64,000 bases of DNA from Linnemannia elongata (lineage: Eukaryota > Mortierellomycota > Mortierellomycetes > Mortierellales > Mortierellaceae), in the NCBI GenBank assembly GCA_036320915.1, contig JAXBDG010000016.1:558001-622000 (forward strand), read 5' to 3'. Below are positions 1,251 to 37,303 of the stretch, piece after piece. The position numbers and the translations under genes were made by a program. Numbering within the stretch: position 1 is the first letter of the stretch; each line of letters opens with the position of its first letter. The notes under the pieces are model-generated. The model was not told the DNA's origin, did not search any database, and was given only the letters and a program-made list of their open reading frames with translations.

Positions 1251-4200
1251 ATGGAACTACAGTGCAAGGACCCTTGCCCGTCCATAGCCGGTCAAGCCGA
1301 GGACAACAACCACAATACCAACAACGCCAAAGACAACAGCGCTGACACCAACATCAACTCACTACTCCCCAAGAAGCGGACAGTCCCTCTTCCCCGCCCG
1401 GGCGAACTCTTGATCTACGACTGCCGCCCTTCTCCCTCTTACACCCATGCGACCACTGCAACAGCACAGGAGACAGCCACATTTCTATTGAAGAATGATG
1501 ATACCTGCTTGGCCTCCTCTCAGTCCCCTTCGTCGTCAGGGTCCAATGATGCCACAGCCGGGATAACATCCACTTCCCCTCCTACGACTCCCATGCCTGC
1601 ACCTCAGGAAGCAACTTTTACTCGAGACGACAGCAATACCGCCGATCAAGGTATGTCTTTGAAAGTCTTCTTGTCAAAGAGATCTGGACATATCATGTTT
1701 CCGTCGTTAATTGTTGCCATTCACTGTTAACACCCTCCGTGTTGCTCATTCATGTGTCGTCTGATTGCTCACGCCTCTCTTTGGTTTCTTTCATTTTCGT
1801 CCTCTTGGTCACCCTGCTCCTCTTCTCCTCTCTCGCTCTCCTTTCTCGCGCCTCTCTTTATGTCACTGTTCCTAATGACTGAACCTCCTTTTTGTAGACG
1901 ATGGATCAGATTCGCCTTCTCCTCTTCCTAGAGCATCATTATCATATTCAGGAGCTGCACCAGGTGCTGCGACAGACAACTACCATCACGACACCTTCAA
2001 AAGCAACAGCAACAGTCAACGACCCATTCGCTGCCTCCAATGGAACATTGAACGCAACTACAAGGCCGACGAGATCTTGGCAACCTTGACAGAACTCGAC
2101 GCTGACATCTTATGTATCCAAGAAATTGACATTGGTTGCCACCGATCGGGCCATGATCGTGACCACTTTCTGGAGATCTGCAAGTCGCAGGGTCTTTATG
2201 GTGGGTTTGTACCCGAGTTCTGGGAGCTGGAGCATCCGGGCCGCAAGGATCGGGATCAGGGCGGTGGTGTTCACGGAAACGCCATCCTGTCGAGGTGGCC
2301 TGTTAATGGGTTCCGAGTGCTTGACCATGTCCATCATGCGTACGAGTGGGAGCGGGATGGACTCAAGCTGAACGAGCCCAGATTGGGAAGGTAATAATAG
2401 CATTGGCGATTGGAATGAGATGGAGATGGTTCGCTCTGTATGTTGAGCCGGTGCGCACGTTTTTCTAGGCTCTTTTTTATTTTTTATTTTTTATTTTTTA
2501 TTATGGGTGTTTCAATTTTGACAATTGTATTTCGGTTACTGTTGCCTTTTTGTAGACGGTTCACAATTGTGGCAGACATCCAGACGCCGTCTGGTCCACT
2601 TCTGTGCTACTGTGCCCACCTCGAGGTCTTTACAGGAATCATTGGGCGTATCTCTGCATTGAGTGACATCTTGGCGGACTCGGAACTGTACTCAGATCGG
2701 TACCCTTATCAGATCCTCTTTGGTGATCTCAACACCATCTCACATTCGATCGCGCGACTTGCCAAGACAATCTCGACAGATCAGTATCGGATTGGATCGT
2801 TTGGATCTCAGGAGGCAGAGTGGTGGGACAACAACCTTTGGAGCTGGCATGTTCAGGACGGAGAGTTCAACTTGGCTCTCGCTACTGGAGGATGGAGCTG
2901 GTTGCGTCGGTTGGGTCTTCTGGGACTTGGTCTTGGTGCTGGCTCAGGTGTCAATGGAGTGTCATCGTTTTGGTCCGCAGATAGCAAGTATTCTGGATGG
3001 CTTGCGCGATTAGTCGAGGCAGGATTGTCAAAAGTCAAGCTCGCTCGCCAAGAACAACTGCTGAGTGACAAGTTTATTACGATCGACCAGGAAGTCTCAT
3101 ACCATTACTCACATCACCCACAACAACAACACGACAACCAGATCAAGGGCCAGCAACGTCACCGTGAATCCGAAGAAAGCCATGCGGATGAACTCGAAAG
3201 TGAGAAGAGCTTTTATGAGGACGGAAGTGTCATTCTTGTCGGACGACCTCGATCACCCAGCATCATCACACTCGAGTCCAGTCTCATGGATCACAACGAA
3301 TGCATGTCGTCGCCGTCGTGGTCGTACCCTTCAACACCGTCGGTGATGTATGCTGGTCAAGAAGGAGACGAGACCGATGGCGAGAACCCGGACTATGACG
3401 AGAGAGTTGATGCCATCCGACCAGGACGACGACAGCTCCCACGTGTCAACGTGCGCCACTTTTCCTCGACACCGTCAACACCTTCGCCTACGCTTCGTCT
3501 GATCCCACCAACGCCCAAGCAGAGTCGGTCCAGTGGTTTGGACCGTGTGCTCATCGGAGCCAATGACGATCAGCGCGGAATCCCTATGCCCTTTGACGAC
3601 GAAGAAGAATTGCAGGATCATGATGTCCAGCTCGACAATATTTTGAATCAGGAGGGACAATACCAGCACCAACACCAGCACCAGCACCAGTACCAGGAGA
3701 CGATGCAACAACACGCCACTCATGAATTTCAATACCCTAATGACCATAACGCCCCCTTTACGACTTTAACGACCACTGAAACGACAACCAACACCACCAT
3801 TTCAACCGCGACAGCAACGCATCATGATATTTACTACAAGCAAAATACGGAGACAGTGACAGAGACACTCAACACATTCAAGGACCCTCAACCACCATTC
3901 CTCCTCACACACCTCCAACAAACCCACGCCTTTTTCTCAACCCAACGACTCTGGTCTGGCTTCACACCCCTTGTCCTCCACCAAGCGCGTAACCCAGGGT
4001 TCTATGACCCCTGGTGTGCTAGGAATGATTTGACTCTCCACAACCCCAACTTTTTTGGAATCCTCAAGGCGAAACTGGACTATACCCTGCTCCGGAATTT
4101 GAGATGTGTTTCGAGGGACATGGGGAACCATGACTACTCGGCGAGTGATCATAAGTGGCTTTTAGTTGAGGTAGAATTTGAGAGGAAGTTTGAGATTGCA

Positions 4201-4554
4201 GCGGCGAGGGAGGATGGGGAGGATGACAAGGATGTTATTCAATTGGAGGGGTTGACGGAGGAGACATCGTCGTTGGTGGATCGAGAGCAGGAGGAGAAGG
4301 AGGTCGCGATGCCATCGAAGGAGCAGCAGTACTTGTGGTGGCGGGAGAGGAGACTAGAGTGGGGACAGACTGTTCAGCCCCTTCCCCATGGACATCCTCA
4401 GCGTGTTGCTGAGAAGAGGGTTCGACGGAGTAAGGCCAGGCCATCATCGTCGTCGTCTTCACCGTCGTCGTCGGGTTCGACGTCTTTGTTCGTGGCGACG
4501 GTTACGGCTGCTGTTGCTGTTGGCGGGTACTGGCTTTGGTCTCGACACAAGTAG
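1251..4554 (+). CDS. endonuclease/exonuclease/phosphatase-fold protein with C-terminal membrane anchor
   Basis: Predicted DNase-I-like (EEP superfamily) phosphoesterase; substrate unknown. Exons 1251-1650, 1898-2390 and 2556-4554 join in frame to 963 residues, with GTATGT and GTAATA donors. The EEP metal-site motifs appear in order: Asn in LQWNIERN, Glu in CIQEIDIG, Asp/Asn in FGDLN and the C-terminal SDHKW. Between FGDLN and SDH lies an insertion of several hundred residues rich in Ser, Gln and His, which is unusual for the fold. The C-terminus has a Ser-rich stretch, then a hydrophobic segment (FVATVTAAVAVGGYWLW) and a short basic tail, as in a tail-anchored membrane protein. The start was chosen at the first ATG of the frame, just after the pyrimidine-rich leader. 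It could be related to sphingomyelinase-like or CCR4-like EEP proteins, but the subfamily is not resolved by eye. The stop lies 51 bases from the stop of the convergent Fanzor gene. Confidence 0.75.
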
Positions 4555-4605
4555 CTGGGCGTTTTCAAGTTTTTTTTTTTATTTGAGCATTAAAAAATGA
4601 CCTAG

Positions 4606-7600
4606 CTAAATTGAGCTACTAGTCCCATTGGTGCACCTGGGTGTGGTGGCAAGGGGTTGATTTGTTCCAGAGGTGTCTCTGGCGTTGTTGGTGGGGATGA
4701 GGGTGAATGGGCGGAACGGTGGAAGGGTGGTGTTATTGACTGATAAAAGACTGCTTGCTCCTGCTGTCGCAATGTTGATGGCGCTGTTTGCATCGCGTCC
4801 TTGAGTCTGACGTCCAGATTTGTATCGCGGGCAATGCTTGTATCGACACTGAATCGCTCCGTGTAAACGAACAGTTTTGATGCTACCGTTCTTGATTCTC
4901 TTCGCCGTCATCAGAGATACTGGCCGATAACATGCTGAACATATTCTGGAGGTGCGATGTTCATTTGTGTGTCCGACAATACAGTATTGGCGGTGCTGGT
5001 TGGTGATCTTTCGACCACCACGCTTTGTGTGTCCCTTGAATCGGGAGCCTACAGAGGTTCCAGCCGCTCCGTGCAGTACTATAGGTATTATGGTCGACAT
5101 TGGGTTCTGACCTTGATATACACAGGAGCAAACAAACATGTCAAAAGAATGGCACCGGCTTATATTGTAATGCTCATCAACAAAAAAATCCCAAAAAAAA
5201 ATGTATCGTACATTGTCATTTGTACTTACCACTTGCAACGACTGCATCCTTGACGGCTCGCCGTTGTTCAGCTGCCAACGTAGCGTATGTACGAGATGTT
5301 CTTAGCCGTTGGACCTTTCGTTGCTTTTGTCGTCTGTTGGAGTTTTCGAATGTTCGAAGTACCTCCCTCGCGTCTCTTCTGATCGCCTGCGCCTTGTCGA
5401 CCTGCTGTAGTGAAGTGGCGTTTGACAGTGGATTTTGAGCTATTAGCTCATGTTGCTGGCGAACTTGCTTTGATTTTTCCGTGTCGGCGCGCAATCTCCT
5501 CTCACGTTCCTTTGCATGTTTGCGCGAAAAGCTGAGGTCGTTGATCTTAGATGCTGTGATTCGCAAGCTGGAAGGGGGATGAGTAGTCGAATATTCCTGG
5601 TCTTCTTGTTCCTTTGGAAGTTCGAGATCATCAATCACTAGAGGGAAATAAATGGAAACAGAAGAGTTCAACCGTGAGTACGGTGAGCAAAGCAACACAA
5701 ACATTTAGGCATGGCAATAGCCCAGGTCAGTTACTTTTTCTTTGCAAGGAATTACCTGGGAGCAGCTCAAATCTATTAGATGTCAGCACCTCGTATTGTC
5801 GAATGTGATCAACCACACCACTGAGGGTCTGCGCAGTGGACTCCTGTAGAGTCACTAGCCCCGGATCGTCGGATAAAAATCCTATTGCTCGTCGTTCCTC
5901 TCCTTCGATCATATCCTGTAGCATGGGCTCGATCCGAATTTTCTCCGTTTTGTCTTCGACACAAGGCCTACTCCAAGTAGGGGTCGACAGAGGTGCTGGT
6001 GGTGATGGGGTGGTATCACTATTCTGCGCTGTGTTGCTAATTTTTAGGAAGGCATACTTGGTTGCGCGCAACTGGCGGATCTGGTCCTCATGACTTGCCC
6101 ATTCCTCGAAAGCATCCTCTGCCTCAGATCTGGCCTGTCGGAAGTCATACAGGGCCTTTTGTCGCAATCCATCCAACTTCTGAAGCTCAGTGGCGTCGTC
6201 CGTGGAGTTTCTCGTGTCTCGTATCCCCTTGATAGTAGCAGTCATATCCTTTTGTACCTGATCCTTTTCCAAGAAACGCTTCCTTCTGCGCTTGTGGTCA
6301 AGCTCCAGCGCCTTGAGCTCCTCAGCCAGCTTCTCCGAGTTCTGCTTGGCTTCCTCCTTCGTGAAGCCGACTCGCTGACCTTCTGTTGACCAGTCCACGA
6401 GTCCCTTCTTTCGGCCTCTCTTCCGATCTGCTTTCTCCTTATCTAGCGCACTGGCGACCGGCGATCCCACTCCTCTCTCTGTTCCTTCGGGGATAATCTC
6501 CCCTAGGATGTGCATTGTGTGCTTGTCAACGAAAATGATCCTAACAAAGAAATAACATAAAAAAGAAGTATCAGAAACCTCGTACTGTGCCATTTCAATA
6601 CTCTTAATGCAAATATTGTCAATAAACTTACCGTTGAGCAAAAGTCAACTTTCGCTGAGCACACATGATGTTGATCTTGCTCATGTCGAACATAGAAGAA
6701 AAGAGCTCCTCCTTGTGGTGTGTGGCAGCGGGGACGGATGTTATCCTGTTGATGGGATCCTTGTATGGGTCAAAGTGGCCTGGACTCTTCGCGCATAAGC
6801 ACTCGTACAATGCTGCTGCACCCAAGGGTATCGGATGAAGCGATCCAGCAGAGGGTACAGGAGCGATCCTGCGCGTGAAATCCGGATAACCGGTTGCTCG
6901 GAGTAATGTGTTGGCGATCAGGACTATTCCAGACATTGACGCAGGGCTTGAAGTTGGAGGGGTTGTTCGGCCTTGAGTGGGTTTGTGACGTTTGGGAGCG
7001 TAGGGTCGAAGCTTCTCAACAATGTCTGCCACAACTGTAAATTCGTGTTCCGTAAATTTGTCGGGCTCGTGAAAAGACTTCCGAACCCAGTTTCGATTGA
7101 TATCCCACTCGAGACTGGGGCTCTCGATGAGCATTCGTGTGACGGATTGGATCGCTCGTAGATGGGCACGGCTTGGTTCCTTTTCGACTAGGTCTAAATT
7201 GACATTGACAGTAAAATACATGCAAAAATTAGTCCTTACTGAATCAATAGATTCCGTTCATCACCTTCATTGATGTAGCCCGGCTGCTTACCAGAGGTTG
7301 GTGTGCACTGCTCTTCTTCTTCATCCTCTTCCTCTTCTTCTGCCTCCTCATCGATCTCGTCTACTTTGGCACACAGACTTCTCATAACAATTTCCCCAAC
7401 AAGACCTGATTTCTCCGAGGCCTGATTAGCCTTGTCCATTCTGTCCTTGAAAGCTAGTTGGTGATGCTCCACATTGGGCTCCTTGCTTGCCAGACGCTCG
7501 AGGTTTGATAGCAAGTAGTGTATATGCTTGGTCTTGGGAATCTCCCGCCGAAGCTCTCGCCCCAGATCATTCTCTGTCCGTGCTACCTTGTCGATCCAAG

Positions 7601-9807
7601 ACTTGTGAGTAAGGCGTTGCTGTGCTTTTGCGATCATAGTTTGGTCGGCCTTCTTGGACGCCTCGTCACGAAGCCTTTGATAGTATTTCGCCTCTCTCTT
7701 CGGCGCCAGATGGAACCGGAGTAAGAATCGCAGAAGATAATCCAAGGATGTGTCGTACAGCGACCCCTCCCACAGGTTGCTCATGTTGGTGGCCATCTCT
7801 GTTCTGAGCTCACACAAGGTTCCCGAGAGCGAGTCGAGGGAATGTACCGTTGGGAGTTGTTCGCTGCGCAACAGGTCACGAGAAGGAGCTGCTTTCCTAT
7901 CCACAAGTACGTCAGCGAGATGGGTCCACAGAGGGTGGTCCACGGCGGACTCAACTGGAGTACCCCTTGGTCCGAGAAAGCGCGCATAGAGGTACCCGAG
8001 ATGCTCGTAGGAAAACAATGCTTGAAGATCCTTGGTCCACGGCGATCGATCCGATTCCATGTGTGAGTCGATATTTCTCTCAAGATCCGCTGGCAGCGGT
8101 GTAACGGAAAGATCTGTCGGAACATCAAACCTCTTTACAAAACCAACTGGGAGAAGATCCAGTACGTTAAGCGTCGGCGAAGTTGACCTGAACGCGGCTT
8201 CTGGCATTCCATGGAGCTCTGCGAGCTGTAACATCAACAGATAAATAGGAAAAACGTATATTAGCATTTGTACGATATGTCTTGCTATCCACTGGCCATG
8301 AAAAATTATGGCTAGTATACAGTTTGGCTTACCAGAAGAGTAGTTTTGTAAACGAGACAGAATATCTCATCAATCGCGTTCGATAGCGCTACCTGCTTTG
8401 TGCTCAATAGCGAGAGAATCTTCTCCATACAGTTGACGTCCGTGTTGTTTTCCTGGAGACTCGGGTTGATGATGGACGTCAGTGACACCGTGAAAGTGTA
8501 AAAGCTCTTGCTGGCGCGCTGCACTGCTTCCGTTTGCAAGGTGCGTTCAACGGTCTGAATATCAGTTGCCTGGCACTCTTCCTCGTCATTTCTCTGTACC
8601 GCCATCGTCATCTCAGTCAAAGGCTTTTGTCCTCTTGCATTGCTGCTTGACGGTAAGTACGGCAACGTTGCTCTTGTCCATGCAGCATCGAAAGAGTTGT
8701 TGAGTGTACTCCGGTACTGTTCGACTGCAAAACCGGGTCCGAGTCTGTTCCGAAACATCTGCTCAGACATGGTCTCGGTTCCTGGAGCCGCAGTGACAAA
8801 CTCGTGCGCGACTTGGAAAAGACCAATTGGAACACGGTTCGCCCCGCCCATCGCATCACGGATCTTTTTCTTGCCAGTTTCTCCAATCCAGTCATCAATC
8901 GACTCGGTCGCCTTTCGTTTCTGAATGCTGCGATCAAGCTTCATCTGCACGGCCTTTCCTATCTCATGCTCACTATAAATGATCAAAACAAAATGAAGAA
9001 GCAAAAGGCGTTAGGCGCCTGTTCAGCCCATGATCTAAATGCCGCGAACTTTGAAGGATTAACGAAAGAAATAACCTACCAGGCCATCTTATAAATCTCC
9101 TGACACTGCTCTGTCATCTCTTCCGTGTTAGGCAAGCCTGGCTGGTGGACTCGAATGCGTCTCTCGGCACGGTATATCGCATAGGGGACAAAAGGAACAG
9201 TTGGGTCTTGTGGGTCCTGGGAGGGTCCGGTCAGCGTAGCAGAAGATGATAATGGGACGGAGGGCGCGTATAGTGCTGTGGATGAAGGTGATGTGTGTTG
9301 TGGCGCCGGGATGCTCTTGACTTGTAAAACAAGAAACTCGGAATGGGCTTGAAAACTGTTGATCGCATGAAAAAAAATAATCGTGCCTCGACTTGAGGCT
9401 GGACGGTAGACTGCAGGAAGAGAGCGAGAAGAGAAAACGAATATTGTGCAGCGAAGATGTGTAGCGAGGATATGGAACATCAGAGCCGTTCTTGGTAAAA
9501 CGGCCATCCACCACGGATTAGGGGTAGTTTCTGCCCTGGTGACCAGCACTGGCGATTGGTTTAGCCTTTTTTCGGTGTCGAGGAGGTCCCGTTTTATCCA
9601 ATGTGCGACTTTTGACAATATTGAGTCTGAAGGTTGAGGGTGTTGGTGAATATCCATTGTCCGGAGTGCCGAAAGGGCGTGCTCGATCTTCTCATTGTGC
9701 GACAAGTTGATCATTGGGTGGGTAACGACGGAATTCAATTTTTCCAGGATCCATTGTGGTTCCTCCCAGTCTTGTAGTAAAGGGCCTGGATCCCAGTCTT
9801 TATGCAT
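4606..9807 (-). CDS. Fanzor-type (eukaryotic TnpB-like) RNA-guided nuclease, very large
   Basis: Fanzors are eukaryotic relatives of TnpB/Cas12 that use a guide RNA to cut DNA. Seven exons (9807-9080, 8972-8333, 8225-7265, 7193-6632, 6540-5756, 5637-5230, 5111-4606) join in one frame of 1,530 codons. Visible catalytic features, numbered from the Met at 9807: RuvC-I Asp in DDPGLVTL (about residue 1188); a Fanzor-like ITASKIND...SRKHAKER segment; VLHGAAGTS and GSRFKGHT; the alternative-Glu motif NEHRTS (about 1412); a zinc ribbon CSAC plus CRYKHC; and RuvC-III RDANSAINIA (Asp about 1468). The first roughly 1,000 residues are an extension far longer than in characterised Fanzors. The 5' end is uncertain: a 54-base phase-compatible exon may lie at 10024-9971, and exon 1 can extend to 9837. 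The exon 3/4 junction needs a weak GTGATG donor, because the nearer GTAAGG donor breaks the frame. All other junctions are canonical. Whether it sits in a mobile unit is not visible. Family assignment is firm; the N-terminal role is not. Confidence 0.83.
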
Positions 9808-9833
9808 GAAATAAACGAAGCCTTCCGAAGAGA

Positions 9834-9851
9834 ATTCCTATTGTTGCCACC

Positions 9852-9882
<31 letters not shown>

Positions 9883-11211
9883 TAATGGTTAGGAATAACC
9901 CAGAAAACAAGAGATGCTGCTGCCTTTCGCGATAAGAACGAAGTTGAGGAGTGGTTGCAGTGGTGTTTACCTGGTATCCAAGTGGTTTTCCAACCCCACA
10001 TTTGGGTGTTACTGGACCCGCTGACTACGACATAAAAGATCATCAAGAAAACAAAAGTGCGTGAATAAATATGTGCTGAGTTGGGACTATTCGCAATGAC
10101 CAACGGAACCGTGGCAGCTTTGCTAATTTGGATATGCACCTGTATAGTCCCTGGGCTTGTTGTCATGCTTCGCTGAATGCTGTTGGGTTCGGGGTTGGTC
10201 CAGTGCTCCGAAGTTATTGGCGTGTGTTTGTGTGAAGGATAAGAAAGTCAAAAAAAAAAAAAAACTATTATTCAGAACTCGTTGGCGAGCCCTTAATTGA
10301 GACAATCCTTCACATTCCTCCACTTCTCATATGTCTGCGTCATAAATGTATTGATCATGGTATCCTATGATTTCGATAAAAAGGAAGACACCATTATCGT
10401 GCTAGAGATAACGCGGGTTGCATTGTTGCTTTTAGGTGCTGTCGGAATGCAGCCTGTACACAGAATACTTATATATAGGGCCGTCGAGGTAATAGTAATA
10501 AATAATATCATTCTTTCTTGTTATCCATTTTAGCTCCTTTATTTATAACTGGTTTGATGCTACAATGACTACTCCTCGTCAAGGAACGTATATGGAGAGT
10601 ATTAGAAGTATACGCGTGAATTGAACGAAAGACTGAACCAACAAACGTAGGCGCAAGCAGAGGAGAGATAGGCAGGCGACATAGAGGTGCACTTGAGCAG
10701 TTGTAGTATGGTCGCTAGTGAGTTTGATACACTTAGCGAGCGGCGGAATGGGTCGCTACCTGAAATGCAAGCTCTTTCTAAGGCGTGTTCGAAGTTGTAT
10801 GGTATGGTCAGGATACATCCAGCAGAAGTAACTTCTCCCTCGACCAGGCGAGAGAGATTTTTATGCGGTGAATAAGAAGCTGAGTGAAGATTAGGACGAA
10901 TAGTCGGGGTAATGTAGCTCATTGTACTGTACATACTTTTTTTCTGGAGCAAAAAGCTAGAGTAACAACTTACAGCAACGCATAGGTATAGACATAGGAA
11001 TAGTAAAAATTGTGTGATATTAGTACCTCTTCATATTTATTTTTATCATCGTTCAATTGTTTTGCGCACTATGTGTAGAAAGATAACGATTTGTGGTATG
11101 GACAGCTGGGAGAGTGGAAATGGTGAGAAAAAAGGCTGAGGGTCTTTGTTGTATCTTGAAGAAAAGCAAGGGTTTCGATCGCAGCTATTGGATACGCCTA
11201 ATAGTGTGTTC
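9834..11211. other. intergenic region upstream of the Fanzor gene
   Basis: Contains a 29-base A run (9852-9880), which on the minus strand is the pyrimidine tract of a possible intron. A candidate upstream Fanzor exon lies at 9971-10024: an AG acceptor, 18 codons in phase, then a GTAAAC donor. A second A run lies at about 10250-10264. The rest (10300-11140) is AT-rich with no supported gene. No terminal inverted repeat matching the far side of the Fanzor gene was found by eye. Confidence 0.4.
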
Positions 11212-12351
11212 ATGAGCAAGGTCTTTCTGTCGTTTCAGGAGGAAGTTGTTGCGGCGGTGCTGATGAAAAAAGTCGTGTTGCCCAAGAACATTCCGGACAA
11301 TATGTTGCGCGCTTTGGAGGTGTCAAGCTCGAACCAGTCGAACGACATGCACGTCCTAAGAAAGTCCCTGACTGCGGTGAATGACAAGCTTGCCCATCAG
11401 TCCAACCAAAGCCTATGGGCGAACAACATCCTTGATGCCCTTGTCAAGTCATTTCTAGCCCAGGAACAGCAACTCCGCATCCAAAGAGAAACCATCGAGT
11501 CCATGCAACAAGCAATCGACGCTATGGCGCGGCAGCTACGCCTTCAAGGCCCTGTTGCTCAGGGCAATCCAGGAAACCTCAGCTACTCACGCCAATCTGG
11601 TATTCCTGGCCCTGGCTACCTTGGTTACACTGGCATTTCCACCCCCGCCCCCGGTTTTCTTCCTCACCTTGGCCCTTTTCCTGGACATCAGTCTCCCATG
11701 CCAAAACAAAAACAGTCCAAGCTCGTCCAAAATCGCGCTTTGGTCGCCATCCAGCCGTCTCACTCAGGTTCTAGTTCTCAGGATTCGTCTATAGTATTGC
11801 CGACGAGGCCTTCTTCAGAATTGGAGCGTTTACTAAGTACGCGACCCCAAGGCATGCCGGTGTTGGAGTCACATCAACCAGAGTCCGCATCAGGGTCAGG
11901 TCCATTGACAGAGGCAGGAATCAGCGCCTCAGTTCAACGTCCAAGCGCTCCACCTCGGGAAACCTGGTTTACTTGGACAACCCACCATAGCTCGACTAAG
12001 AGCATTTTCGAAGAGTATCAGCGATACAAAAGCGAGTTGGCGACAAGATTAGAACCCGGAGACGGAGGCAAGCATAGACTCAAGCAAAAACGACGACAGT
12101 CGGACGCAACGGAAAAGCATGTGAGCGACATCAGAATAATTAGTACGGAGGTGGACATTCTGAAGGACAAGGTGGGACAAGAGAAGGGTGGCTCCATTTC
12201 TGCGGAGCAAGCGCTCTCTCATGCGTTTGAGGAGATGGACACTTTGGTCAAGTTTAACTCCAATAAAAACATCTTCTCTTTTGCCCAAGCTAGAACTTTT
12301 TGTGGAAAGACAGCAAAGGAACGTGAAGAAGAGAGAAAAAGCAATCAATAA
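11212..12351 (+). CDS. coiled-coil protein with GCR1/Crypton-like C-terminal region
   Basis: A 379-residue frame read from the first ATG; an in-frame stop lies about 75 bases upstream. Residues about 40-150 are helical with heptad-like spacing. A Pro/Gly/Ser-rich middle follows. The end (ETWFTWTTHH, FEEYQRYKSE, then a basic KHRLKQKRRQ segment and a terminal helix) resembles the GCR1-type DNA-binding domain often found behind tyrosine recombinases of Crypton elements. No recombinase domain is visible upstream, so this may be a solitary or truncated element gene. The match is by pattern only. It lies in the mobile-element-rich island between the Fanzor gene and the mariner element. Confidence 0.4.
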   Translation: MSKVFLSFQEEVVAAVLMKKVVLPKNIPDNMLRALEVSSSNQSNDMHVLRKSLTAVNDKLAHQSNQSLWANNILDALVKSFLAQEQQLRIQRETIESMQQAIDAMARQLRLQGPVAQGNPGNLSYSRQSGIPGPGYLGYTGISTPAPGFLPHLGPFPGHQSPMPKQKQSKLVQNRALVAIQPSHSGSSSQDSSIVLPTRPSSELERLLSTRPQGMPVLESHQPESASGSGPLTEAGISASVQRPSAPPRETWFTWTTHHSSTKSIFEEYQRYKSELATRLEPGDGGKHRLKQKRRQSDATEKHVSDIRIISTEVDILKDKVGQEKGGSISAEQALSHAFEEMDTLVKFNSNKNIFSFAQARTFCGKTAKEREEERKSNQ

Positions 12352-12819
12352 AGGACTGGAATTATTTTTAGGCATATTTATTCATCTGCGAACGAATTAT
12401 TGCACTTTCTACTTTATGACAAGATGTACTTATAGCAAACAGATGTACTTGATAGTCATAGAAAGCCAAACGGATATGGCATTCTTGACACGCGCGCACA
12501 GTGCGAAAAGTAAAAAGAAGCGCGAACTTGAATGGATGCTTGAGGCATATGACCTGACAAGCAAAGTGTCTGGTTCATAGTTTGGTAGCTGTAGGTATTC
12601 ATAGGATTGAAAAAAAAGTGTGAGTAACACAACTTAGAGGTTTCGCTTAGTCGGTGACGCACTTTGTATTGAGTATTGGATTGGGGTGTGCAAGCATGTA
12701 GCATGTAGGTAATAGGTTCACTTGACACCGTGTTACATTCGCCAATTACGTGTAAGCAGCCTTTTTTTTTTTTTTTGCGCGCTACGCGCGTGTAACGATT
12801 TCATTTTTATTTTTTCAAT
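12352..12819. other. intergenic region
   Basis: AT-rich spacer with a T run at about 12763-12776 followed by the short palindrome GCGCGCTACGCGCG (12777-12790). It ends at the TA target duplication of the mariner element. No gene is supported. Confidence 0.45.
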
Positions 12820-12821
12820 TA

Positions 12822-12838
12822 TCCCTTTTGCACATTGA
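12822..12838 (+). repeat. left terminal inverted repeat of mariner element
   Basis: 17 bases, perfect inverted match to 14569-14585, preceded by the TA duplication at 12820-12821. Confidence 0.9.
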
Positions 12839-12963
12839 AATCGTCACACCTCTGGTGAAAAATGCGCAGATGATTTTTTATTAGCGTATATTCATTGCAG
12901 TTGCGCTCTACCCTGAAATATATTCGCTGCACCATTGATTTTGATTGTGCTCTCCCTACACCC

Positions 12964-14300
12964 TCAATTTCGCGTTTTTCCCGAGCGGGTGCGAAGGGGC
13001 GAGTATCTCCTACGAGCATAGACCTGATATCCATCCAACGCATCATCATCATCATCATCATCCTCTAATTCATCTCTTTGGTCGCCGTCATTCCCCTCCT
13101 CCTCATCCTCGTCAATGTCCTCCCCGTGATCATCGTCAACGTTCTCATCCTCATCCTCGCTGTCCTCATCAATGCCCTCCTCCTCTTCCTCCTCTTCTCC
13201 GTACTCAGGTTCATCACCCCAGCCCTCGACGTATGGGTCATGATAACCCTCGGGAAGGGCTTGACGGACATCATAGAGTCGGCCAAGTGGAGCCCCTGCG
13301 AGTGAAAGCTGGAAATTTCGTCCAACTTCGCGAATCCACCCTCTTGCCATTGCGGCAGTAATTCGTTCCAGGCTGTTTGCAACATGGCCGGCGAGAGTCT
13401 CCGCCTCTACCATCTCCTGACGGACATGAGTCTTGACACTGCTGAAGACAGACTCAGCAGCGTTGAGATGCGGGCTATATGGAGGGAGGAGAAGAAGGGT
13501 GTGGCCACCGGTAGTGATGGCGTCTTGTACCCTCTGAGTCTTATGGAACCTGGCGTTGTCCATTAAAAGAATGCGGCGTCGGCCATCGAGATCGAGACGG
13601 GGAAATAGTTTGTCCTCCAAAAATTCCGTAAAGGAATCTTGGTTAAATGCTCCGCGCTTGAAGTGGTATGCCAGGATGCCCGTTTTGTCAACAGCAATGA
13701 CCAGAGACATGTTTGGGCCACGGCTGTAGGGTACCCTCTGGAATGCACGTCTACCTCGGGGAGCGCGGCCATACTTGCGGGTAATGTGCAAATTAAAGCC
13801 AGCTTCGTCAATGTAGACAAAGTGGTTCATATTGCCAGGACCATGGAGGACATTTGAGCCCATTGTTGTCGGACCTCAATGCGCTCGGGATCATTGTATC
13901 TCTCTGGCTCGACCCTCACCAGCTTGAGCGTGTAAGTGGTGAGCTTGTTGATGGCCTTGTCGACAGTGCGCTGGGCAAGGGGGGGCTCGATCTGAAAGTG
14001 CTCGTTCAACTTGATGGTGAGCCACTGAACAGGACGGCCAGCGAACTCGTCCATGTTCTCAGTGAGCCAGTCTAGATGAGCTTGCTCGACCCTACTGCCA
14101 CGGTTGCCACCTCTGGGCAGCTTGTCCATGCGGCTGGTATGAATAAAGGTACTGACAATGCTTCTGACGGTAGACGGGGGGATGTTAAAGTTACGAGCTA
14201 CCAATGCCATAGTCATGCCCTGATCGGTGACTAGATCAATGATCCTTTCTCTAGTGGTGTTGTCGATTTTGTTGTTCTTCCTTCTTCTCTGAGCTGGCAT
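12964..14300 (-). pseudogene. Tc1/mariner DD34E transposase, frameshifted
   Basis: DDE transposase of the IS630-Tc1-mariner group. The first segment (14300-13827) has a helix-turn-helix pattern (ERIIDLVTDQG, VARNFNIPPSTVRSIVSTF) followed by a basic linker. The second segment (about 13863-12964) has the catalytic domain: Asp in FVYIDEAGFN, Asp in LLMDNARFH and Glu in PHLNAAES. Exactly 34 residues separate the second Asp from the Glu, giving DD34E. The segments are in different frames; the first hits a stop (13827-13829) just before the catalytic Asp region, so a single-base indel between about 13830 and 13860 has broken the gene. No slippery heptamer or intron was seen that would rescue it. 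The C-terminus is a long Glu/Asp run and then a basic tail, an unusual acidic extension. All catalytic residues remain. Confidence 0.85.
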
Positions 14301-14568
14301 GGTGCTTTGAAGGGCGTGTGAAGGTCTCGTTGAGGTTTGGTGTTGGGTGGGTGGGGAGAGGAGATGTGGGAAGTATAGCGGCGCTCATGAAGGACGATTA
14401 CATATATTACATTTTACTTTGGTGGCAAAAAACGTCGAAATTTCATGTAGGGGCTGACGAAATTCAAATCCAATGCAAAGCAATCTAAAAGTTCACTGCG
14501 CATTGTTCGATGTGCACTTCGACGATTTACTGCGCACCTACGTGTTTTGGTTGTGCAATAGAGCGAAA

Positions 14569-14585
14569 TCAATGTGCAAAAGGGA
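14569..14585 (-). repeat. right terminal inverted repeat of mariner element
   Basis: 17 bases, perfect inverted match to 12822-12838, followed by the TA duplication at 14586-14587. Confidence 0.9.
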
Positions 14586-14587
14586 TA

Positions 14588-15215
14588 TTTCAGACTCCTC
14601 AAACATGTCAAACATTTCAAACATCAAAACAGAGGGTACGCATTGGACATGTGTCAGATCTGCGACATTTCAAACATCATCGACTTGATGAACAAACTTT
14701 ATCGATACAATAAACGATTATTGGAAGTAGGATAAATTTTATCGCTAGCCGTTAATCATGGATAATAAACGCATTCGCCTCAGGATGTCCATATCAAAGC
14801 CGTCTCTCCCTTGTTTCAAACGCGTCCTATCAATCAAACGTGTCCTTATCCTGTCTATCGAGAAGGATGGGAGCAAAAACAAGAAAGACTCTTGATCACA
14901 GGAGGCATGTCTGAAAAAAATAAAAGTATGTTAGTGTCCTATTTTTTTGGTAACAGTTGTTTGTGATTGCCTTGGAGGAAGGAGGTATTTGCCTTTTGTT
15001 TTGAGTGCCGTTGGTGTTGTAGTTGCACGACTTCCTTTGCCATTCCTTCTCGCCCTTTTTACAATCCCTTTCCATTTCTTTGTCACTCCCACGCCCTTTC
15101 TTCATCCCCTTTGCCACCATTTCCCTGTCTTTTTCTCTTCTTTCTTTCATTCCTCGCCTTTTTTCTTCTTTCATTTCCTGTCATCCTTCGCCTTCCTTTT
15201 TAACCAACAAACACC
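14588..15215. other. intergenic region with CT-rich leader
   Basis: No gene seen. The last 180 bases are strongly C/T-rich and lead into the Crinkler start codon, resembling the promoter/leader style of the intact genes in this window. Confidence 0.45.
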
Positions 15216-29467: not shown

Positions 29468-32400
29468 CTAGACCTTGGAGGATGATAAGTTATGTCGACG
29501 CGTGAGGGATTCCGGATGGCAGAGGGAGCCTTTGGCGTGCGCAGGGATTAGCGACTGGAACTTTAAAAAGTCCAATCGCAAAGACTCGTCTGCACAGTCG
29601 ACATTGTAACGACGGAGAAGTGAGAACGGTTCCAACCACCCAAAGTAGTCTCTTTCGACCTCTGCCTTTACCAAAGGGATCAGCGCCATCATTGCCTCGT
29701 AATTCGTGTCGAACTCGGTAACTTTCCAGGCCAACAGCTTGACTAACGCGAGCATAGTCTCGCTGTTGCCCAAAATATCGTCCACGATCGCTTGCTGCTC
29801 TCCATCCTTTTCGTCAATCGGTCCTGTGCTAGGAGTGCGCTCGATCCACCACTTGAGTAGGAATACCAAACCATCATCGGCGCTTCTAATTCTACCGATG
29901 GTGTACAACAACTCCAGCACTTCCTTGCATGACACCTTCCTAGCATCCAGAAAAACTCTTCCAAATATGCTCACTCCATCCTCAGCGCGACGATCCAATG
30001 AAACGTTGAACTCCGGTCGCTCGCCCTCGTTCTGACCGATCTCCGCCTTCAGGTGATACGTCGAAAAGATACTTCTGAAGGTGTTGAGAAAATCCAAAGT
30101 CGAGATTTCGGAGAGGAAGACAATGACAACGGGAGCAGCGCCAAAAGTGGATGAAAGAATGGTTCTGTTCGAAGTGGGATCCTGAAGGTCGAATTGAGTC
30201 ACCGTCCCCATCGTCACGACGCTCCTCAAATAGTCGAAAAAGTTGTTGATCGGCCAGGTAAGCGTGAGATAACTCAAACAGGAAAGCCGTCGATCCGCCA
30301 ACGACAGAATGTCGAGTATCCCCTTGATGCTGTTGCTGTTGCCGACGCTCGCAACTGCGCTCTCGGGTCCAAGCGATACCATCAGTCTCGACATTTGAGG
30401 GCTACGGAAACACTGCGGCCACTGGGATCCTGAGACTTGAAACTCAACTGCCTTTACTTCTCGCAAAGCTTGATTGTCCTGTCCATCGACTTGACTGGAT
30501 CCCTCCAACCGAACCGACATCGCATAGCCGTCGTCTGACTTGATCATCCAGGTTTCCAATCGCTCACCGCTTTCAGCCGTCGTTATCAACATCTCATATA
30601 TGGCATCGATCTCTGTCCTGGTGGGGATAGTGATCTTGAGCTCAGAGAGTAAAGGACTGATGAGGAAAAGCTTCATCAGATCGGTCGATGTCAACATGGC
30701 TGCACGCTCCACCTTCAAGTGAAGATCTCGAAGCGGCAAATCAAGGGTGGTCAGCTCTTTGCTTGTACGTAGCATTCTCTGCCTGAGTCGACGAAGCGGT
30801 CTTCTGGGGTGTATCTGCACCTGATCTTGAAAATAAAGTAAACCCGAAAGCGGACTGGCGAGAGCAGCATCGAGCTCAAGAGTTTCGAGATCGGGGAACT
30901 TCCAGAGAATTTCGTCGATCGTACTCCAGTTTTCGATTTCGTACAGGTGAGTGGGATTCTTGGGGCAAAGCCTTATCTTCTTGACGTTGGGGATGCCACT
31001 CAAATGGATGGGAATCCTGGCGGTAACTTGTAGTGCTACAGAAGCAACAGATCCATCCTCGTCCTTGAAACGAATGGACGCCAAGATCCCGGCGTCCAGC
31101 ATCAATCGAACGTTCGCGAGTTCCTTGAACTTCTGGAATACCGGCTTGAGGAGTGTCGTAGCTTGAAGAAGATTAGAGACCCAGGCGACCTTCAAGTACA
31201 GCGTCGCAAGTTGCGGACAGGACAAAAAGAATGTTTGAAGGGTCACAAGATGTTCCTCTGACAAAAATTGGTCCGTGAGATCGATTTTTTTCAATGGCAT
31301 ATCAACGGGGACCGATGTTTCGCTATCTTTGTTCCTGAGAGTCAAGCTTTGGAGTTCTGGGTTGTCGAGTGAGGCTTCTTGAGCAGCCCTTGCAATTTCC
31401 AAATTAAGATTCGAAGAAAACATCATTCTCAGCGCAGGTAGCTCCCATTGCAACTTTGAGGCTGAACTCTTTGAGCAAGCCACTTCGACAGAGATCGCGC
31501 TATCTACTCCTGACTTGAACCGAATGGATATTGTGTTTTTGTCCTTGTCATGGAGGTATAGCTTTGTCAGAGAGCCATGGGACCAGACTTTTGAGCATGC
31601 AGCCTTGAAAGCGGAGATGGGATCGGAGACCGTGAGTGAAAGCTCCAAAAGCGACGGGCTGGCCAGGAGGATATTCTTGATGAAAGGATCCTCAACTGTT
31701 AGCACTGAGTGTTTGGTCAGATCGAGAGACATGATTGGCAGGCTGTAAGCGGTGCCAATACTCGCTCGATCGGAATGCCAGATCTTGACCTTCTGCAGTG
31801 CCTTGTGGCTTGACGCTGCTGTCAAGGCAACGGCCAGTACGTTAAGATGCTGAGAGAAACTGCACGACAGTTCCAATCGTCCTAGAGCCGCGAATGTTTC
31901 GACAGGTTTCTTGATCTGAGCTCCGAACAAGGTAGAACTATAACCGACTGAGATCTGCAATTCCGTGACTGATGAAAGTCGAGCAATGTCGGACTCGCCA
32001 AAGGACGTCGCGGTGAGACGCAGGGTGACTTTATCTATGCCACTCCAATCCAGCCTAAGTTCTTCTAAAAGACTATTCGGTCGTATGCGCATGATCCAGG
32101 AAGTGTACTCGTCGCCTTTTAGGACCGGGGCCGACGCGGAGGTTCTGGATAGTCCGGGCCCGAGTGCTTCGTATAAAGCAAGCACTGCGCCTTCGACACC
32201 GCTTGTTCCCCCTCCCTCACGTCTCGATCGCATGAATCCCGACGCCTTGCCCTCGACAGTTTCGTCATGCTCTGGAGAAACAACGCCCTGTCCGACAGAA
32301 TCCACAATAAGGTCCGCAATGCTCTTGACCTGACCCGGAAGCGTTGGGAATCGGAAGAGGTCGACCTCGCAGCAATAACGCAAAACATAAATGGCGATTT

Positions 32401-35400
32401 CCGCGGCTTTGCTGATGTCGACGCCGACAATGTCCACTCTGTCCACATCCACTGTGGGCAAGAAGAAAACGCTGTCAAATTTCGCTTGAGAAACTTCCTG
32501 GATAACGGTCAGGGCGTTCTTTGATGATCCACTCTCAAGAGAAAACACCGCTGTGGGTCCATCCGCCAAATTGAGAGATAAAGTCGTCAGCGGTCGCCGT
32601 TCCTGAAGAATAAAGTTGTAGATGCGAACGGCGGCATTGACAGACTTGACGGACAGGCAGAGTTGCTGAAGCTCCTGGTTGGTTCGAAAAACGCGTTCCA
32701 TGATTTCGAGATCCTCGTCGCCAAGTACATGTGTTGTAATGTCGAGAGTCATGAGTGGTAGCGCCAACACCTTTTTCTCTACGGACGAATCGGCGCCGAA
32801 AGTGGTAAGGACGACTTGGCACGGAAAAGATGTCTTACGGAAAGCATGGCTCAGTTCGTCGATCACCTTCAAGACATGAACGTTAAACAATCTGATATTG
32901 AGTTTTGAGAGGTGCTGGAAATGCGTAAAGACTGATGTGGCGAGTTTCTGGATCTGCGAATCTTTCAGTCTTGACCGAATACTCAACTCCGTCACCATCG
33001 GGAAGGACAAGAGCGGATTAACATCAGACTCGGAGGTATGTAGCACGATCGACTGGACGTCACCGGTGCCGACGATGAACTGGATTGACATCCGCGATGC
33101 TACCGTCGCTAGCTGGACATGAGAAAGATGCTTGTACTCCTTTGCCGCTGAATTGACCATATTGAACGCCTCCAAGAGGGAAGGGATCGACAGCGCTACT
33201 CGGGACAGTGTTGGAGCCGAGCGGAGCAAATTCTTGAGCGAAGAAAATTGCTCTTTCGAAATAGTGTGACTAAGACGAAATTCCTGCAAAGGGAAACTGA
33301 ATTCTTTCACGACTTTGTCCGACACACTCCAGAAAAGAAGTTGCGTAAGCTTCGGGAAGCGGGTTGTCGACTCGTGGACGTAATGTAAGGCATCAAGGAC
33401 GTGCTCTAGTTTATACTCGAACTCCAGTACCTTGAGGTGACTGAACTCTCTGGTTGCATCCTTTGATAGGTCTCTCAGGCGGTCTAAACTCTTGCCGCCG
33501 AGTAGAGTCAGCTTGGACGCCTGCAATTCGACGAAGGATCTGAGTGCGTCGAAGTCGCCGACGTGCAGAACTACCGAGTTGGATCCATCCTGACCAAGCT
33601 CGAACCGGACCGAAGCTAAGGATCGATCCGCCCGCGAAAGTGTAAAGGTTGATATCGAACTGTGGGTGACGTTTGACGGTGCTGCGGTTGTTCCTTGCAT
33701 CTCTGTCGATGTCTCCGTTTCCGTTCCCGCGTCATCGACTGAGGCGACCAATAGGACCATTTTCGAGAACATACTCCGCCTATGCGCCATCTCGAGTTCC
33801 AAGAATTCGATTTTGCTATTGTCGGGATCGGTTTGTGCTGCGCCTGCTCCCCTTGCAGCAGTCTCCTCCATGGTAACAGCCTCTGCATCCTTCATCGGAT
33901 GAGAATATATATCGGTCACTCTCCGTAAGGCTAGTAAGACACCTGCGCCACCATCTGGTAGTTGAGCGACCGTAATCATCTTGAGATCTCTCCAGTGTTT
34001 GATAAGCTCCGGCATGAGCTGGGAAAGATAGAGCTGAGGGTTTTTGGCCAGCAACTGCACTGAGGTCACCATCGGCAGCTTCTTCAGCTCCGAAGACCAT
34101 TTCTCAACCTTCAGAGCAATACCGCTAATCTTGTCAGATCCTTTCTCAAACTGCACCAACGCCGCTGTCCCGTCCTTCAGCCGTATCTCTAGGGTCGAAA
34201 GGGTCTTGTGCTCCACAGCCAAAGGTCTTAACAGATCGAATGCTGTGACGATGTCTTTGACCACGATCGCAAGTCGCTCTAGTCCCGAACTTCCGCGAAC
34301 CAAGTTCTCTAGCCTGGCAAAGTTATCGGTCGTATAGATTACCTCGTCCAGATCAAAGTCCCGAAGGCGGAACGTCGTGGTCTTGAAGGTGTCTTTGGTC
34401 GGCGATAAGAAGCTGGTAATGTTCTTGAGGGTCAGGGAGAGGATTTTTGGGTGGGCCATGATGTCAATAATTGGCTCGGAACGGTGGTTAAAAGTAAACG
34501 TATCTCGCTTAGGACTTGCGTTATTGCAGAAATCCAGTACCAAGCGCGAGATGTTCGACCGCATCAGGGCCTGCTTGAATCCCTGTAACTCGTCAAAGCC
34601 AACATTCCAGTCCAGTTTCAGCTCCAGCTCATGTACAAACTTGGTCGAAGGCATCGTGTCGTAAAACTGCTTGGCTAGGGTAAACGATGCGAAGTGCATA
34701 GTGACTCGTCCTATGTGCTGGTCGTATTTTCCTCCATTTTCCTGCACAGCCTTATTGAACGTCTCAACTGCTGATGATCCGTAGCTCTCTCTGTAGTGAT
34801 CGAGGCAGACCCACTTGACATGACCCTTGGGCGTCACCGTCCTGTAAAGGTTACCCAATACCATACCAACGTCACTTCCTTCCAAAAACGATGCTAGGTT
34901 CCGCAGGTCCGCTCCCTCCAGTCCTTCGAGCTTCCCAATCGAGGTCGAGTTCACCTGTGCTGTTGTCGAATCGGCGTTCCCGAAGTCACGCGAACGTTGC
35001 TCCTGGGCCTTGGTTAAATCTTTCAAGTAATCGATCGCGGAATCGACCTTGGGGATGAACTCTTTCTTCGCCATATTCAATCCATCCACAATGTAATCTA
35101 GTCCTCCCACAACGTTCAGGGAGTCAAGTCCCTTTGCAACCATTCCTGCCGCTGTGACCCCGTACTTGAGCACCTGGAGGAGGGTCAGCACATAGGAGCC
35201 GTACTTGCGGAAGAACTCGTTGGGCCGGTCCAGGTCGTAGCCTTCATGGCGGGCAAGGTGGATGTGGTGGGATAGAGCGCTAGGAGATCCATCGACTCGC
35301 TGGGTATGTTCACCACACTCGCAAAGGAAATAGAGCCGGAACCGGTTGACGAAGACGGTGCCAATTTTCTCTCGCGCGGTGATAATGTTGCCCTTCGGTA

Positions 35401-37303
35401 AGACGATGAACAATCGAGGGATCGGAAACTCGTGAAGCTCGTAGGTTTGGTTGAGAATAGCTGACGCCTTGTTCATAATTTTCGCCAACTTCGTCATCAC
35501 ACGCTGGTTAATGACTGCTTGTTTTTGTTGAAGTTTTAGGATCTTTTGGATATTCTTGTCCGCCTCTTCCGCCATCTTGTGGATTTGGGTTTGGAGCTCC
35601 GAGTTTTTGGCGACCTCGGACTGGAGACTCTCATGGTACAGGGCCATCTGCTGTTTGATCGACTCCGCCTGTTCTCGGACAGCCTGGGCCTGAGCATGCT
35701 GCCCCTGAGCTATGAGTTGTTCACAGGACTCGACCTTTGACTCAATTTGTTGGAGATAGTCGAGTGTCTGCACGATGGAATCTGGTCGCTCAGATCTGGC
35801 GACAAGGATCCTGAATGCATTAGAATGGGTAGACGGGTTCAAGTTTGGACAGTGAGAGTTATCGTTGAAGTCTGTAGTAATGGCTTCTATGTGTTCTTGT
35901 GTCGGAAGGTGGTGACAGAGCGATGGAGAAAATGATCCTGTCAAGTCGAGCGACTCCATGCTGTCCTCGATGTCGTTAGCCCTATTGTTGGCAGCATATA
36001 TACGTGTTATTTGACTGTCCCAGCAATCGTTCATTACTATCATTCGTGATGACCTGTCCTAGTACCTGCTGTTGTAAAGTCTAGGCCGACTGCTTAAATG
36101 CGAAGTGGTACGAAATGAGATGCCCTCACGGCTTGCTGCATCCCGTGGCCCTGTGGTCGACGCAGATCTATTGAGTGGGATTGCGAGCAGTTAGTAGAGA
36201 GTATAAAATGTCTTTCGCGATTCTTCTTCAGCTATAATAATCGCCTTTCATACCGTCGAAGTCTCCCAGTCGCAGCAGTCGTTGACCCGTACTGGGCTTC
36301 TTGTTGACGACTGTACTGTCCTGAGTGACTAGAAGATCGTTTGTGACGACCCTGTATCGACCTATGGCTACCACTATGACCAATTTCATAAATCGATAGT
36401 CAGCAATTTTCAACACAATATTTTTTGCGCGTCAAGAGTTACCGTAGAATAACACATACCGAGATTGGTACTCAAGGTTGACGCCGAAGGTCACGACATT
36501 ATTCTCGGAATGAGTTGGTGCGTCTGGAGGGGACATAAAGTAGCCCTGATCCCTTAGCGCTCTGAAATACATACAAGAATAAGGATGAATACTTGTTTGC
36601 AGATGGAAAAGTAGTAGCATTGAAGATACAAACACCGAAAGAAAATGAGCACATACCGCGCGTTTGTGTACTGATTCGACATGGTGCTGTCAACTGTCGA
36701 GAGAGATGAGACGGTGCTCTCTGTTCGACTGCGCGAAGAGGAAGAGGACCTAGTTTGCACAAACAACCAGTGAATGCGGATGTCAATTAATCCCGTCCAA
36801 TCCAGCGGGTTCTTTGCGAGTCCGTGTGGGAAACAATTAAGAGAGAAGAAAGACGTACTCCTGCATATATGCGTCGGAAAAGGTCATGCTTTCGATTGTG
36901 GATGGTGAATACTCACTTTCCACCCTAATTGGGATCTTGTCGCCCTTGACTTCCAGCACTTTATCTTGGCGGTATTCAATGCACAGTGGCCAGAGCCTAT
37001 CTCTACAAGTGGCACATTAACAGTATGTAGCAATTAGCGTCAGAACTCTCCCTCTTCTACAACATCTCGAATGAGGTCAATGTGGAGCAAAGTGTCTCAC
37101 CTTCCTCCGCTGTCAAGGTCTCTTGCAGGAGAGATAACATCGTAACCTAGCATGATTACGATGTTACAAAGACCGGGAAAAGCTCCGGTAATGTCCTCCC
37201 AATATATGACATAGCGACCGGAATCTCCGTGAAGACAGACTTGGATAGCGACAACTTGTTTGTTTGGTCCTACAAATCTCTGGCGTTTTTCTTCTGTGAC
37301 CAT
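29468..37303 (-). CDS. giant modular repeat protein (2,391 residues)
   Basis: Six exons (37303-37101, 37002-36859, 36749-36657, 36561-36460, 36373-36254, 35981-29468) join in frame to 2,391 residues; every donor is GT and every acceptor AG. N-terminus (about residues 1-115): a small fold starting KRQRFVGPNKQVVAIQ and YVIYWEDI, of the kind placed at the front of large Mortierella proteins. A Ser-rich linker follows. A coiled coil at about 295-390 has many Gln and Glu. A conserved central region at about 410-480 includes LFIVLPKG, FRLYFLCECGEHTQ and HLARHEGYDLDRP. VKWVCLDHYRES follows at about 605. The remainder is LRR-like, with a recurring module (hydrophobic strand, DLT-type turn, helix with SPxLxxLxL, then SIRFxxG strand) beginning near 760, 1120, 1295, 1635, 1780 and 1970. 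No NTPase P-loop was found. Function unknown; a scaffold or recognition role is inference. It lies inside the F-box cluster, same strand. Confidence 0.78.

Follow-up and report, generated by a model that had tools for sequence, protein, structure and literature searches.

The window analysed here is a 64,000-nt stretch of the Linnemannia elongata genome (Mortierellaceae; GenBank assembly GCA_036320915.1, contig JAXBDG010000016.1, positions 558,001 to 622,000 of the forward strand). It carries a gene for a Fanzor-like protein, a putative relative of the eukaryotic TnpB-like RNA-guided nucleases, which had been singled out in an initial annotation made from the sequence alone. Beyond that annotation, the gene is located on a multi-copy mobile element, the large size of its product is characteristic of the family, and part of the element derives from a Crypton. 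Feature coordinates are collected in Table 1.

Table 1. Positions of the mobile element and its parts within the window.
Feature	Position	Strand	Remarks
Whole mobile element	4587..14714	minus	In gene orientation from TTTATTGTATCGATAAAG (14714) to GGTCATTTTTTAATG(C) (~4587); ends common to the copies on C1, C5 and C7; includes the later mariner
Far terminus	14695..14714	minus	Shared with the Crypton on C4
Tc1/mariner-type element	12822..14585	minus	Helix-turn-helix (HTH) and DDE_3 frames; terminal inverted repeats; TA on both sides
Open frame, last exon of a Crypton-type recombinase gene	11140..12351	plus	Recombinase domain missing; 98% to the C4 locus from window 11154; the C4 gene has NDC10_II
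Tentative first exon	10140..10166	minus	MTTSPGTIQ, then GT; ATG at 10166; weakly similar to the P0011 start, E 0.089
Fanzor-like gene	4606..9837	minus	Seven exons, 1,530 open codons, first ATG = codon 11
Exons of the Fanzor-like gene	9837-9080, 8972-8333, 8225-7292, 7193-6632, 6540-5756, 5637-5230, 5111-4606	minus	One gene
Exon 5	5756..6540	minus	Holds RuvC-I Asp (DDPGLV)
Last exon	4606..5111	minus	Alternative Glu (NEHRTS), zinc-ribbon Cys pairs, RuvC-III Asp (RDAN); sub-threshold TNB/TnpB matches
Predicted hairpin at the right end	4599..4624	minus	Minimum-energy fold; overlaps the last codons and the stop; candidate guide-RNA scaffold end or recombinase site

All six introns of the gene have GT/AG borders, and the seven joined exons remain open up to a stop codon, as the initial annotation had proposed. 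Its exons within the gene span were upheld, while position 9837 was not retained as the gene start because it directly follows a splice acceptor; the first in-frame ATG lies at 9807. Longer relatives extend ~37-40 residues beyond the N-terminal end of the window model, and the sole first-exon candidate found is weak (Table 1).

The RuvC-I, alternative Glu, zinc-ribbon and RuvC-III motifs occur in the annotated order, with DDPGLV starting at residue 1189, NEHRTS at 1412, CSAC at 1420, CRYKHC at 1451 and RDANSA at 1468. The alternative Glu (E1413) stands six residues before the zinc-ribbon C1420, the spacing characteristic of Fanzors. The Fanzor/TnpB motif of PMC3627910, coded here as D-X(125,275)-[TS][TS]-X-X-C4-X(5,50)-RD, was found in the window protein. 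It appeared in none of 20,000 whole-protein shuffles and in none of 20,000 shuffles of the C-terminal 752 residues. Open frame and motifs confirm the window gene as real; its product, which we call Fanzor-like, has 1,520 residues or more.

Protein searches with C-terminal words (817 candidates scored in the first; in the second, the 7,990 sharing most words) yielded 12 distinct relatives: seven in Linnemannia gamsii, two each in L. elongata and L. hyalina, and one in Mortierella hygrophila. All relatives found belong to Mortierellaceae, reach up to 1,797 aa and share the motifs or the long N-terminus. A search with words from the first 500 residues gave none at E 0.01 among 7,988 candidates scored. 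The alignment to the window protein begins at its residue 2 for relatives P0003, P0005, P0006, P0008 and P0009 (1,521-1,797 aa) and at residue 30 for P0007, which makes the long N-terminus a family trait; the remaining six are shorter gene models. The check for homologues with the same N-terminus, suggested in the initial annotation, was thus successful. Its claim of a large additional N-terminal part, put there at roughly 1,000 residues, was supported: RuvC-I lies at about residue 1190 here and at D383 in SpuFz1, an excess of ~800 residues (PMC11423790).

The RuvC-I motif reads DDPGL in 9 of the 12 relatives, DEPGL in P0005 and DDPRL in P0007, and is absent from P0010. TNE.RTS is present in 7 of the 12, several models being cut or damaged at that place. 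P0002, an L. elongata relative, can be read in stretches at locus L034, which lies on C5 in the genome of the window. In this genome, grouping of 74 matches gave at least 15 loci of the giant family, a lower bound with 26 of 304 candidates scored. No member was confirmed in the viral contigs and the bacterial and archaeal genomes searched. An OTU-like protease fold for residues 1-190, an impression from the letters, was dropped, as Pfam scans of the window protein and 10 relatives list no such family. A literature search found no Fanzor report for Mortierellaceae or Linnemannia; its coverage mostly excluded subscription journals, so earlier reports are possible.

The gene is carried by a transposable element, as Fanzor genes are. 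The element is ~8.4 kb long and exists in four near-identical copies, namely the window copy and those on C1, C5 and C7 (98.4%, 98.0% and 97.8% identity to the window copy, respectively). Homology stops at window 4586-4588 on the near side, ~20 nt beyond the stop codon. On the far side it extends to 14714 in C1 and 14649 in C7, which also has the terminal word; C5 matches from 12778 and past that keeps only the terminal word. The terminal words in Table 1 begin and finish the element, with TTTG at the beginning and one change at the finish in C5. A 17-mer from the far terminus occurs at 5 places in the 51 Mb genome (control, 0), and a 23-mer from the right end at 4 places when up to 3 mismatches are allowed (control, 0). 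The flanks are different at all four copies, and target duplication was not seen at any of the four insertion sites. TAAA stands at both ends in three copies, and C5 has CAAA at one end.

The mariner-type element is missing from C1 and C7 and hence represents a later insertion into the window copy. For this reason, and given the TA on both sides, it was rejected as the carrier of the Fanzor gene. The mariner transposase is divided between two overlapping frames, one with HTH and one with DDE_3, and is therefore spliced or broken.

Frame-changing indels were detected in exons of C1, C5 and C7, a count that assembly errors could partly explain, and none in the window copy, the only intact one of the four. 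Ratios of nonsynonymous to synonymous substitution (dN/dS), computed without codons with gaps, were 0.18-0.35 over the six pairs of copies. When each of the 98 variable sites was counted once, the ratio was 0.28 in the gene frame versus 1.05 and 2.4 in the other frames. By region it was 0.28 for residues 1-490, 0.33 for 491-1180 and 0.22 for 1181-1530, so that the last 350 residues show the lowest value. These low ratios across the frame indicate that the exons, including the N-terminal ones, were constrained until recently. Private changes numbered 16 synonymous and 15 nonsynonymous in the window copy (ratio 0.28), 5 and 9 in C7 (0.55), and 11 and 3 in C1; the last figures date the selection signal at least partly to the time before the copies broke. 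A switch of the window copy to a host gene with a cellular role while its sister copies decay is very improbable: it would account for this being the sole copy of the four without frameshifts, yet the copy has the same ends as the three broken ones, the selection signal is common to copies (as in C1), and a mariner has inserted upstream of the gene; domestication was dropped because of the shared ends.

For membership of the protein in the Fanzors, the DPG motif, the alternative Glu at Fanzor spacing, the two Cys pairs and RD occur in order. The profile and structure results weigh against it. A profile search had been set beforehand as the refuting check for the Fanzor identity, and its outcome was poor: every TnpB/Fanzor profile match of the giant family is below its cut-off. 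Pfam TNB (PF07282) matched the window protein at E 0.29 and 4 of the 10 relatives scanned, with a best E of 0.011. With exon 7 alone, NuBaID_C (E 0.054) ranked ahead of TNB (0.08), and NCBIfam TnpB gave 0.23, all sub-cut-off. Sequence searches of the PDB, run with the whole joined protein, with the C-terminal half and exon 7 separately and with two alignments, returned chance-level matches or none, and no Fanzor. Two AlphaFold models were of low confidence, with predicted local distance difference test (pLDDT) values of 41 and 46. The genome contains 61 TNB matches, 53 of them above the cut-off, and thus many ordinary Fanzor-like genes besides the giant family, whose loci are not among these 61.

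A weak connection to the ordinary genes was obtained with hhalign: the giant-family profile aligned with three of the 61 ordinary TNB proteins at P 0.0035 and a probability of only 9%, in an alignment of 52 columns at 38% identity that places NE..TS..C..C and RD..A.N in register. All three have PF07282 matches (best E 7.3e-16), and a profile built from them matches solved TnpB-like proteins. The Fanzor identity in the initial annotation is thus supported by the active-site motif set and weaker than claimed on profile evidence. We class the window protein as Fanzor-like and regard a very divergent Fanzor1 as its most probable identity. An alternative that we consider unlikely, but the best placed of those weighed, is a Fanzor descendant that has kept the RuvC and zinc-ribbon residues for another function, such as a DNA-binding role alongside a recombinase. 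The distance from all TnpB/Fanzor profiles and the conservation of the large N-terminal part would suit such a protein; the catalytic Asp, Glu and Asp are nevertheless kept in the relatives whose models cover them, apart from P0005 and P0007 with their altered RuvC-I motifs, and the lowest dN/dS falls in the last 350 residues.

The origin of the element's far side was traced through the fifth site of the far-terminus 17-mer, located on C4 (C4:1342493). It matches window 11154-12822 at 98% and 14586-14714 at 86%, and gave no Fanzor match in the genome search for giant loci. The shared part belongs to a gene, of which it comprises the last exon and the 3' flank. The upstream exon of this gene carries NDC10_II (PF16787, E 1.2e-9, above the cut-off), a domain that we take to mark fungal Crypton recombinases. 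Work on Cbf2/Ndc10 (PMC3212892) lends help to this link. The C4 site was also considered as a copy of the window's element group (group A) without the Fanzor gene and was rejected, since it holds a Crypton gene. In the window frame itself no Pfam family passes, GCR1_C included, and the recombinase domain is absent; as the element has no tyrosine recombinase gene of its own, we call it Crypton-derived rather than a Crypton. In total the genome has 35 NDC10_II matches, with several groups of equal score, so Crypton-type genes look multi-copy.

Three other subfamilies of giant loci were distinguished (L034/L035, L036-L038 and L039-L042), with identities over the gene of 95-99.97% within and mostly 64-77% between them. 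Most pairs nonetheless share a ~1 kb 5' end at 91-95%. A search with this end matched all nine elements and C4:676088-676529 (93%), just upstream of another NDC10_II gene (C4:673483-674589); the part shared there includes the start of a long frame upstream of that gene. Weaker pieces lie at C4:1196230, C8:1413668-1414508 and C4:292341-293138. The 3' part at C4:1342493 and the 5' part at C4:676088 show that two different Cryptons supply an end, one its 3' and one its 5' end. Members L036-L038 (C28:2235922-2243076, C28:2275617-2282771 and C9:349701-356855) are 99.9% identical and hence very recent copies; the C28 pair lies ~33 kb apart in opposite orientation.

These Crypton-derived ends bear on a further, improbable alternative, in which a Helitron2-type Rep/Hel moves the element and Crypton pieces were picked up as passengers. 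The T-rich word at the insertion site fits the Helitron2 description in PMC3627910, as do a 3' hairpin and a possible hairpin at the 5' terminus (TTTAT-TGTATCG-ATAAA). Against it, no asymmetric terminal inverted repeat was seen by eye, one terminus consists precisely of Crypton sequence, and such sequence is found again in other subfamilies.

At the opposite, right end, the last ~50 nt of the three other subfamilies form a conserved DNA word into which the coding sequence extends. The stop codon lies 6-21 nt from the end in 8 of their 9 copies; in L041, with its broken frame, the distance is 99 nt. L034-L035, L039, L040 and L042 use one reading frame through the word, and L036-L038 use another. 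Over the last 55 columns identity was 78, 67 and 63% versus 45, 44 and 71% in the preceding 55, the third pair being without contrast. A six-pair hairpin in the word has two compensating double changes, with pairing of 100% versus 28-56% in slid versions. In group A, C1 and C7 have weaker forms of the hairpin predicted for the window copy. This is where a guide-RNA scaffold would be expected, and a recombinase site would explain the word and hairpin equally well. Near-matches to the right-end word of subfamily D, differing at 1-2 positions, also occur outside the known giant loci, at C21:6745, C29:361839 and C3:2226754; they could be lone right ends, and a reversed control also often matches at 3 mismatches.

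Taken together, we tentatively favour, at somewhat less than even confidence, the reading that the window encodes a predicted RNA-guided nuclease of Fanzor-like type on an element with one end in common with a Crypton, and that the element probably moves by means of a tyrosine recombinase provided by a Crypton elsewhere in the genome. What the analysis establishes is the open frame with its motifs, the family, the copies and their ends, the purifying selection and the Crypton origin of one end. To the results already counted against it are added the hairpin covariation, which involves 3 distinct rows only and whose value is reached by 62 of 500 shuffles, and the C4:1342493 Crypton locus, which as far as read is without the right-end word, so that just one end is common to the two. 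Mechanistically, a recombinase encoded elsewhere would act in trans, while the right end would supply the guide-RNA scaffold and flanking host DNA the guide, as in TnpB and Fanzor. Cutting of element-free chromosomes at that site would then favour retention or spread of the element. The conserved N-terminal ~1,180 residues may consist of an enlarged recognition lobe and a family-specific module.

A much bolder extension, which we regard as quite improbable, is that giant Fanzors form a separate branch in which an N-terminal half of 1,180 residues links RNA-guided targeting with the tyrosine recombinases of Cryptons. The guide RNA would choose or prepare the site and the recombinase would join the element, giving a fungal RNA-guided recombination system. 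If the favoured reading is true, the reported size of Fanzor-type proteins is about doubled, by a part that is conserved and selected and not an accident of the gene model. One open copy with mapped ends also offers a defined place to look for the guide RNA. The giant proteins would be tied repeatedly to Crypton recombinases, an association represented in the texts consulted by an entry in a list of partners and by a single partial gene in one subfamily of Mucor elements.

Elsewhere in the window, a host gene on the plus strand (2419-4554) ends ~32 nt from the element, which places the insertion in its 3' flank. Judging by its motifs, its product resembles the endonuclease/exonuclease/phosphatase fold. 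An uninterrupted 2,196-residue frame on the minus strand (29468-36058) contains repeated stretches that look leucine-rich, and several frames resembling F-box/leucine-rich-repeat proteins adjoin it, both being impressions from the letters.

In prokaryotic IS200/IS605 and IS607 elements the TnpB nuclease gene stands at the right end, and the element ends a few nucleotides past the stop codon. The window element has the same arrangement, and differs in being eukaryotic, in its at least seven exons and in the recombinase type. The boundary of the right-end element RNA (reRNA) is treated in PMC10711439. In comparison with fungal CryptonF (PMC3212892), the element has one end and a coding exon from an NDC10_II gene, and the 4-bp TAAA at both ends of three copies resembles the CryptonF short direct repeats; unlike CryptonF, it lacks a recombinase domain, GCR1_C was not detected, and it carries a nuclease gene as cargo. 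A published precedent is given by the MCi-2 Fanzor1 elements of Mucor circinelloides, of which one subfamily has a partial Crypton transposase gene (PMC3627910). Like the window element, they combine a Fanzor gene in the 3' part with differing 5' regions. In MCi-2A it is the C-terminal part of the Crypton protein that is missing, and target duplications of 11-12 bp are present, whereas group A retains just the C-terminal exon, on the opposite strand, and no duplication was seen at its four sites. Crypton recombinases are also listed among the transposases associated with Fanzors (PMC10711439). With SpuFz1, GtFz1 and PpFz1 the window protein shares DPG, the alternative Glu before the zinc ribbon, RD and a transposon-borne gene (PMC10432273, PMC11423790, PMC10711439). 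No significant sequence match to them was found, and its length bears out the unusual size first annotated: SpuFz1 has 638 residues and Fanzor1 proteins are reported to reach ~800, against at least 1,520 here.

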